Positions 34,299 through 36,198 of a stretch of DNA of 53,717 bases are shown one piece after another (positions within the stretch are counted from its first letter, which is position 1; every line of letters starts with the position of its first letter). This stretch comes from Terriglobia bacterium (GTDB lineage: Bacteria; Acidobacteriota; Terriglobia; Bryobacterales; Bryobacteraceae), in NCBI GenBank assembly GCA_025363475.1, contig JANYDS010000006.1, positions 1 to 53,717 on the forward strand. Reading direction: 5' to 3'. The notes beneath the pieces were generated by a model. It was given only the letters and a program-made list of their open reading frames with translations, did no database searches and was not told the origin of the DNA. A program made the position numbers and the translations under genes.

Positions 34299-34955
34299 TT
34301 AGAGGCGGGGATTTACGGGGATAGACGCAGGGAGAGTCAGGTCTGCATATTCGCGCAGGATTCGGGTCTCTTTTTCGTCGAAGCCGAACACCGGCTGAGT
34401 TAGTTCCGCACGGCTGTGGCAGGCGCGGGCTACGCCGCCAGAAGCATGTTTTTCAGTGGCGGCGAAGATATGGTACATCTCATGCGAAATGATGCGTCCG
34501 AGAGCTTGTCCGTAGAGGCGGTCGCGGTTTTTCTCACGCACAGAACTGATATCGCGCGCCAGATAGCGGCGCAGTTCATCGCAATGCACTTCGGTGAAGT
34601 GCAGGACCTGGCCTTGCGAAACGGTGGTGGAGGCAAGGGTGGTATCGGTTTCGTTCGGCCCCAGTTCGCTGAAAGGCGCGAACCCGCTGCCGCAGGAGCC
34701 TTTGAATTTGATGACTACCAGGTCGGCGAAGGAACCATCATTGTGGGGTGCGTTGAGGTCCTGCCAGGCGAATGACAGGCCGGCGGGCAGCATGATGGAA
34801 GCGACTTCGCGTTCCATTGAAGAGACGATGTTTTGTGACGGGCGATTTTCGAAATCGATGAATACACCGATACCCGGCGACGCGACAACCGGATCACGGG
34901 CCGGCGCGACGGAACAAATACCCAGCAACAGAGTTGTAAAGCAAACGAATCTCAT
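34299..34955 (-). CDS. Secreted protein with HExxH motif, putative small metalloprotease
   Basis: 218 residues: signal peptide (MRFVCFTTLLLGICSVAPA), a compact N-terminal domain with IGVFIDFENRPSQN, and the zinc-like motif H158-E159-M-Y-H162, with a further histidine at H170 (ATEKHASGG). Similar proteins are known in acidobacteria without a characterised function. The motif HEMYHIFA within a predicted helix is consistent with a zincin; the third ligand is not certain. It precedes the carboxylesterase on the same strand. Confidence 0.72.
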   Translation of the reverse strand: MRFVCFTTLLLGICSVAPARDPVVASPGIGVFIDFENRPSQNIVSSMEREVASIMLPAGLSFAWQDLNAPHNDGSFADLVVIKFKGSCGSGFAPFSELGPNETDTTLASTTVSQGQVLHFTEVHCDELRRYLARDISSVREKNRDRLYGQALGRIISHEMYHIFAATEKHASGGVARACHSRAELTQPVFGFDEKETRILREYADLTLPASIPVNPRL

Positions 34956-35094: not shown

Positions 35095-36198
35095 ATGAAA
35101 CGTCGCAGCTTCCTTCTTGCTTCCGGTGCGGCCTCCCTTGCGGTGGCTGCCCCGTCCAAAAACACGGTCACCGTGTTGTGTGCCGATAAGGCCGTGAAAC
35201 TTACCGAGGTGCGTCCCGATCCGAAGGATTTGTGGATACGGGCGGCGGATCTGCCGTCCATCAATGAATTCCACGTCAAGCCGCAGGGGGCGTGTCGCGA
35301 AGATACCTGTATCCCGATTCCGCATGATATGAAGAGCGGGCCGTGGTTCAATCTGAGCGCCTTTGCGCGCAAACTGCACCAGCCGGTGGTGGCCGATTCC
35401 GGGGTGTGGAGTTTCGGCGAGATTCCTTTATTGAGCGGCGCGTTTTTGGAATCGCGGATTGCACCGGAATTTGCGGTGCCGGATCGCAAGGGTCGCCTGG
35501 TTCATCTGGCCGATTCCAGGGGCAAGAAAAGGCTGATCATTACCTGGGCATCCTGGTGAGGGTGCCGCTTTGATCTGCCCGGGTGGCAGACACTCTATAC
35601 GGAACTGAAAGACCGGAATTTTGAAATCATCGCGGCGGCGCAGGATACGGGCGGTGAAGCGGCTGCGGGTAAGTGGTACGACGCGGCGAAGGCTACTTAT
35701 ACAACGCTGATCGATAAGCAGCATGTGGTCAGCACGGCGTATCAGTTCATTAATGTGCCGACCGGAATATGGATTGATGAACGCGGGCGGGTGGTGAGAC
35801 CGGGCGAATCGGCATGGACCTCTTCAACGGCGAATAAGTATGGTGGCAAGGTGCTGGAAACGCATGGCGAGGAATATGTATCGGCCCTGCGCGACTGGGT
35901 GATCAACGGGGAGCGCAGCAAGTTTGCGTTGTCTGATGAAGAGTTTCAGAAGCGGATGAAGCCACGTTCGTCGGCTGAGATGGAAGCGGATGCGAGCTTT
36001 AAGCTGGCGGTCTGGTTCCATGAGAATGGCGGGGATGAACTGGCGGCGAAGTACTGGAAGCGGGCGCAGGAATTGAATCCGGATGACTGGAATTATGCGC
36101 GACAGGACTGGAGCTTTAAGCCGGAAGAGGCGGGGAAGAAGTGGCTGGATAAATTCCAGAAGTTTGATAAGGAATATTATCCTGGGATCAAGAAATAG
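35095..36198 (+). CDS. Probable selenoprotein: Tat-exported TlpA/redoxin-like protein with Sec155
   Basis: Read through one in-frame TGA (35557-35559), the frame gives 367 residues ending in TAA. The N-terminus MKRRSFLLASGAASLAVA is a twin-arginine-like signal. Residues about 125-290 have the thioredoxin/redoxin fold: IAPEFAVPDRKGRLVHLAD, KKRLIITWASW-U155-G-C157, FEIIAAAQDTGG, and NVPTGIWIDERGRVVRP, which contains the cis-proline (VPT). The TGA sits exactly at the first redox cysteine after the tryptophan. Both sides of the TGA are conserved in fold order with no frameshift, so a random nonsense mutation would be a coincidence. A hairpin with bacterial SECIS features follows at once. It likely acts as a periplasmic thiol or peroxide redox enzyme. 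The alternative is a recent nonsense pseudogene; sel genes are not in this window. Confidence 0.75.
35560..35595 (+). promoter_or_regulatory. Candidate bacterial SECIS element
   Basis: Directly after the TGA: lower stem GGGTG (35560-35564) with CACTC (35591-35595), a 9-nt bulge on the 5' side only, a perfect 6-bp upper stem TCTGCC/GGCAGA (35574-35579 with 35585-35590) and apical loop CGGGT. The loop begins 20 nt after the TGA and carries G in its second position, which is the known spacing and loop rule for bacterial SECIS hairpins recognised by SelB. Confidence 0.65.

Follow-up and report, generated by a model that had tools for sequence, protein, structure and literature searches.

Selenoproteins in which selenocysteine (Sec, U) stands in a U-G-C motif within an AhpC/TSA- or TlpA-type domain, the Sec form having cysteine (Cys) homologues, have already been published, to go by the excerpts of the literature available. 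We describe here a gene whose sequence places it as a new, apparently acidobacterial member of this kind. It lies at positions 35095..36198 on the forward strand of a 53,717-nucleotide stretch (positions 1 to 53,717 of contig JANYDS010000006.1, assembly GCA_025363475.1; hereafter the window) from a Terriglobia bacterium of the family Bryobacteraceae (Acidobacteriota), and it encodes 367 residues if its one in-frame TGA is read as Sec.

A 2008 paper (PMC2398784) contains, in the passage available, the entry "Prx-like (UGC-containing)", UGC, followed by the numbers 46, 15, and 855; these we take to count Sec sequences, samples, and Cys homologues, the column heads lying outside that passage. The section concerned assigns its 3,506 sequences to families described before, so the UGC kind may predate 2008. 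An excerpt of a 2026 review names a "UGC-containing TlpA disulfide reductase family protein, cd02966, UGC", citing for it the 2008 paper and a 2016 paper and naming the record MDE0950781.1 (PMC13188914), and an excerpt from 2005 has one UXC sequence in its Prx-like family (PMC1088965). The U-G-C redox centre, which an initial interpretation of the window from its letters (the sequence-only reading) had called not common, is therefore a known arrangement. The excerpts on the published UGC kind do not describe a function, an N-terminal CxxxxC domain or a twin-arginine translocation (Tat) signal, and we liken our protein to that kind by description only. The main texts of PMC13188914 and PMC5029168 contain no word beginning "acidobacteri"; no literature was found under WAxxUGC or NF041054 or on ResA-like bacterial selenoproteins, a literature search on Bryobacter selenoproteins gave nothing on the topic, one on acidobacterial thioredoxin-fold selenoproteins gave a paper about a kinase-like domain, and none of the 8 papers found for HTCC2143 contains the word "selenoprotein".

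The UGC family has already been modelled by NCBI curators, as NCBIfam NF041054 (WAxxUGC_long, "ResA-like WAxxUGC motif-containing protein"). The window protein shares the motif, as WASWUGC, and matches the model over nearly its full length (residues 48-364, E 2.6e-85, with Sec entered as Cys), as do all 44 proteins of the alignment described below; at 286.8 bits against a cut-off of 300 it falls 13 bits short and is thus not called a formal member. Ten relatives were scanned singly, from the start of the match, which is not in every case the start codon; the cut-off is reached by two of them (L067, 300.5 bits; L072, 328.6 bits), and eight stay under it. The window protein belongs to a supported 12-row clade that includes L067.

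Two other systems invite comparison. The periplasmic oxidoreductases ResA, TlpA, and DsbE/CcmG have the same fold as residues 114-276 of the window protein and keep the cis-Pro position, whereas the window protein replaces C-x-x-C by U-G-C and has in addition an N-terminal domain with a Cys pair and a helical tail. The active site of thioredoxin is C-G-P-C, of which U-G-C is a version without the proline and with selenium for the first sulfur. The CGC tripeptide, a CXC motif acting as a mimic of protein disulfide isomerase (PDI), reportedly goes back to Woycechowsky and Raines in 2003; it has the same two chalcogen residues around one glycine, whereas the window protein has a natural thioredoxin fold and selenium for the first sulfur. 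The excerpt in which we found the tripeptide reports, from earlier work, its action as a PDI mimic and a potential of -167 mV (PMC4316792), a value that applies to the tripeptide only.

The TGA Codon and Its Homologues

From the ATG at 35095, translation meets a sole internal stop, the TGA at 35557..35559 (residue 155), and then runs on to a TAG at 36196-36198; the standard-code list of open reading frames (ORFs) splits the gene in two at the TGA. Reading through gives W-A-S-W-U155-G-C157, a U-x-C spacing one residue shorter than C-x-x-C, with the partner C157 of U155 encoded at 35563..35565, and further on N-V-P-T-G, which contains P222. The sequence-only reading was right about the single TGA in a 367-residue frame, the U-x-C spacing, and the VPT cis-proline region downstream, and wrong about the terminal stop, which it gave as TAA.

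Among 121 whole genomes, consisting of the one that holds the window and those of 120 relatives, matches better than 1e-70 occur in four (the window's own, G050, G072, and G093), each with exactly one TGA, and in 0 of 18 same-genus genomes. A fifth, weaker match (G113, locus L026, 1405-2337 on the reverse strand, E 2e-35) is a shorter redoxin homologue that reads WASWELC, with Glu at the Sec position, and is without the N-terminal CxxxxC domain.

Scanning 84,980 species genomes yielded 63 related loci, assigned to Acidobacteria/Terriglobia/Bryobacteraceae, Planctomycetes, Hydrogenedentota, Gammaproteobacteria, Actinobacteria, and one unnamed bacterium; L056, L067, and L068 are probably the same records as the G093, G072, and G050 matches. 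The codon aligned with residue 155 is TGA in 54 loci, including L107, in whose frame a second TGA follows further on, and Cys in eight; the frame of the remaining locus (L076) is broken and unread. All 62 readable loci therefore carry Sec or Cys, in line with what the sequence-only reading had proposed to look for in homologues, and the only other residue is the Glu of the more distant L026; the count should be taken together with the search patterns, one of which spells Cys at this position while the other covers a different part of the protein, so that Cys forms are favoured and other residues under-sampled.

A 44-row alignment comprises the window protein and 43 of the 63 loci, 20 near-copies and partial or broken sequences having been dropped. 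The only Cys/Sec columns kept in all 44 proteins are C67, C72, U155, and C157. In the tree of these proteins, one branch (support 96/88) separates the 37 Sec rows from the 7 Cys rows; a single origin of Sec is possible but, as it depends on the position of the root, not proven. The window protein groups with the Acidobacteriota rows, its highest identity being 69%, to L052.

The Region Downstream of the TGA

A bacterial selenocysteine insertion sequence (bSECIS)-like hairpin, UCUGCC-CGGGU-GGCAGA, follows the TGA at 35574..35590 on the forward strand. Its 6-bp stem, its 5-nt loop CGGGU with G second, and its distance of 20 nt from UGA to loop lie within the published bSECIS limits as given in the source excerpt (upper stem of 4-16 bp, loop of 3-9 nt, G in the first two places, 16-37 nt from the UGA). 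Loop base 2 is G in 55 of 55 sequences (the window's own and those of the 54 Sec loci); when identical 36-mers are merged, all 47 distinct sequences have a UGCC/GGCA-type stem core with a five-base loop after the TGA, and in 45 of them the stem is extended through one of three registers, within which bases at synonymous positions covary (e.g., U-A versus C-G). The registers were defined after the sequences had been seen, and scoring of the controls used these three as well. Against the 45 of 47 observed, permuting the 3' sides overall gave a mean of 22.2 (maximum 33), permuting them inside two clades (18 and 29 sequences) a mean of 35.9 (maximum 41), and synonymous recoding a mean of 10.8 (maximum 21). 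A search with Rfam SECIS_1 was uninformative, as no control gave a match.

Three observations count against the hairpin as a Sec signal. The minimum-energy fold of the window's isolated 48-mer is not the hairpin, which appears in the best fold after trimming of 6, 9, 12, or 14 bases and not of 3, and three of the eight Cys genes likewise show the stem core and extension. One Cys homologue, from the Pirellulales (L072), has a perfect SECIS-like hairpin after its TGC codon, perhaps a relic of a Sec-to-Cys change or perhaps chance.

Protein constraint is stronger downstream of the TGA than upstream in six of seven comparisons of the window with acidobacterial relatives, which were chosen from the 43 in the alignment. 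The ratio of nonsynonymous to synonymous differences per site (pN/pS) is 0.323-0.516 before the TGA versus 0.195-0.282 after it in these six, and the comparison with L068 is level (0.521 versus 0.514).

Selenocysteine Machinery and Other Candidate Selenoprotein Genes

All the sel genes that the sequence-only reading had proposed to search for are present in the window's genome (4.16 Mb, 96.3% complete). The tRNA-Sec scores 70.7 bits, over its cut-off, and has the anticodon TCA according to ARAGORN; SelA (477.5 bits), SelB (350.7 bits), and SelD (351.8 bits) each exceed their cut-offs. SelB is present in 102 of the 121 genomes at E values up to 1e-60, and its co-occurrence with the selenoprotein gene therefore carries no weight.

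Among 26 AhpC/TSA matches in the genome are two more frames with one in-frame TGA each, L119 (G000:C5:33000-34600) and L120 (G000:C23:47300-49000), both on the reverse strand, with the motif DW-U-P-Y-C in the context FFRSADW-U-PYC, so the window gene is not a lone case. Both match PRK09437, SelL-related, and ResA models, all below the cut-offs. None of the four molybdopterin oxidoreductase matches in the genome (one of them under the cut-off) has an inner stop of the kind sought for a Sec formate dehydrogenase, and a SelW-type Rdx match was sought and not found. In locus L001 (3-1061 on the forward strand, 1337-1410 on the reverse, and 1501-1594 on the forward) the tRNA-Sec gene adjoins a tRNA-Gln gene and a frame that, judged by eye, resembles a serine recombinase, and it may thus lie next to a mobile element.

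Protein Architecture and Probable Export

The structure model built from 44 sequences has a predicted local distance difference test (pLDDT) score of 91.1, compared with 55.9 for an earlier model from 4 sequences. Its N-terminal domain, residues 22-112 (35158..35430), is a confidently modelled region that carries C67 (35293-35295) and C72 (35308-35310), each Cys in 44 of 44 aligned proteins. There follow a ResA/TlpA/DsbE-like thioredoxin-fold domain, residues 114-276 (35434..35922), with U155-G-C157 and the cis-Pro-type P222 (35758-35760), and a C-terminal helical, TPR-like part, about residues 281-356 (35935..36162), seen as helices in the model. V221-P222 is kept in 44 of 44 proteins. A structure search, which covered residues 114-276 of the model, has chains of the ResA, TlpA, and DsbE-like kinds among its best matches. 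Pfam TPR_2 matches 35 of the 44 members at E values up to 1 (best 4.7e-6), the window protein's own match being weak (E 0.16).

A Pfam scan of the 44 members assigned no family to the N-terminal region of the window protein. Two likenesses were considered for this region. A MerB-like organomercurial lyase site at CREDTC is not borne out, MerB being absent among the 25 of 33 Pfam families listed for the 44 members, and the same 25 contain no copper amine oxidase N-terminal (stalk) family, of which the strand pattern had been reminiscent.

The protein begins with a probable Tat signal, MKRRSFLLASGAASLAVAAP (35095..35154). The Tat-like signal proposed in the sequence-only reading is plausible: 18 of 19 Acidobacteriota loci have a twin-arginine motif ahead of the domain, versus 3 of 42 others (61 of the 63 loci counted, L076 and L114 omitted). 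By the Pfam model it is weak, TAT_signal scoring 15.6 bits, under the cut-off of 22.7. Many gammaproteobacterial loci are without an evident signal, and localisation seems from these sequences to differ by lineage.

Alternative Explanations

We consider the TGA at codon 155 almost certainly decoded as Sec, as the sequence-only reading proposed, on the strength of the aligned TGA and Cys codons, the hairpin, the downstream constraint, and the Sec machinery. A nonsense mutation, a pseudogene, or a misread base could be imagined, given a draft genome of 96 contigs and a TGA one base change away from a Cys codon, but 54 of the 63 loci, drawn from many assemblies and phyla, have TGA at this very codon, and the part after the TGA is under purifying selection. 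Recurrence of the TGA in many separate assemblies excludes sequencing error and refutes an error or pseudogene at this locus, an explanation to which we give next to no credence; the earlier judgement that chance nonsense at exactly this codon is unlikely was sound. If the TGA were read as another amino acid, such as Trp or Gly, whether by a general change of the code or by leaky read-through, the frame would equally be open on both sides of it. Against it, TGA ends 8 of 27 long ORFs hand-picked from the window's ORF list, so that outside this gene the window uses it as a normal stop codon and general recoding is ruled out as the cause; moreover, Cys stands at the position in all eight readable non-TGA loci of the 63, though Glu in the more distant L026, and the Sec machinery in the genome is complete. 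Such decoding is very improbable, if slightly less so than an error.

Two further alternatives accept Sec and concern what the gene does with it. The UGA might serve as a selenium switch, releasing at low selenium a 154-residue N-terminal CxxxxC product with a use of its own. The N-terminal domain is indeed a separate region with two invariant Cys, but in the model the UGA lies a little past the strand at 145-151, within the thioredoxin fold, and the short product would be an unfinished fold; we regard this as improbable. A Sec-dependent peroxidase of the glutathione peroxidase or peroxiredoxin type, in place of a disulfide exchanger, is a more serious contender, though still the less likely one. 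Pfam matches the window protein to AhpC-TSA (PF00578, E 2e-13) and Redoxin, and GSHPx reaches 18.2 bits against a cut-off of 27. The ResA model, by comparison, finds all 44 members and has the better best E value (2.1e-21), the best solved-structure matches by both sequence and fold are of the ResA/DsbE type, though with a Z gap to peroxiredoxins of less than 2, and V221-P222 and C157 are kept in all 44. An exported thiol-disulfide exchanger is favoured over a peroxidase because of the analogy with the CGC tripeptide as a PDI mimic (PMC4316792).

Proposed Function

Sec decoding combined with some redox role is very probable, and on balance we think that the product is an exported thiol-disulfide oxidoreductase of the ResA/TlpA type. 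Genes of this sort are known to have their Sec inserted by way of SelB, and from the parts present we infer that SelB on the hairpin would deliver Sec-tRNA at UGA 155. The product would then leave the cytoplasm, probably via Tat, and U155 would attack a substrate disulfide, sulfenate, or peroxide; resolution by C157 would give a U155-C157 selenenylsulfide, and a reductant would regenerate the two residues, perhaps with the invariant C67/C72 pair as intermediary. If the CGC tripeptide is a guide, U-G-C should be a comparatively oxidising, fast-exchanging centre.

That C67 and C72 relay to the U-G-C centre is a tentative suggestion from their conservation. More speculatively still, the protein might be a self-contained exported relay with exactly four conserved chalcogen residues, in which the CxxxxC domain feeds or drains a proline-less U-G-C, a natural selenium counterpart to the man-made CGC isomerase motif, in the refolding or repair of extracytoplasmic proteins; it would work outside the cytoplasm in Acidobacteriota and inside it in the signal-less gammaproteobacterial branch. 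The two invariant Cys outside the thioredoxin fold are candidates for an electron route and make the function of the kind testable. The alignment offers a clean Sec/Cys exchange at one catalytic position together with a covarying SECIS, in a gene that is easily missed, since standard-code annotation cuts it at the UGA and its NF041054 score lies just under threshold.

Gene Neighbourhood and Other Observations

Neighbouring genes were compared at the 63 loci and the window, using mechanically called ORFs within at most 4 to 4.5 kb per side (less on short contigs), and no family lay near more than five loci. Just upstream of the window gene, at 34299-34955 on the reverse strand, is a divergent frame of 218 residues with no Pfam match at E values up to 1e-5. 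On a Pirellulales contig (L086, 3920-7141), the UGC redoxin frame continues without a stop to 1074 residues in total; by eye, the extension resembles a DUF1080-type domain plus a sulfatase, the latter by its CSPSR motif.
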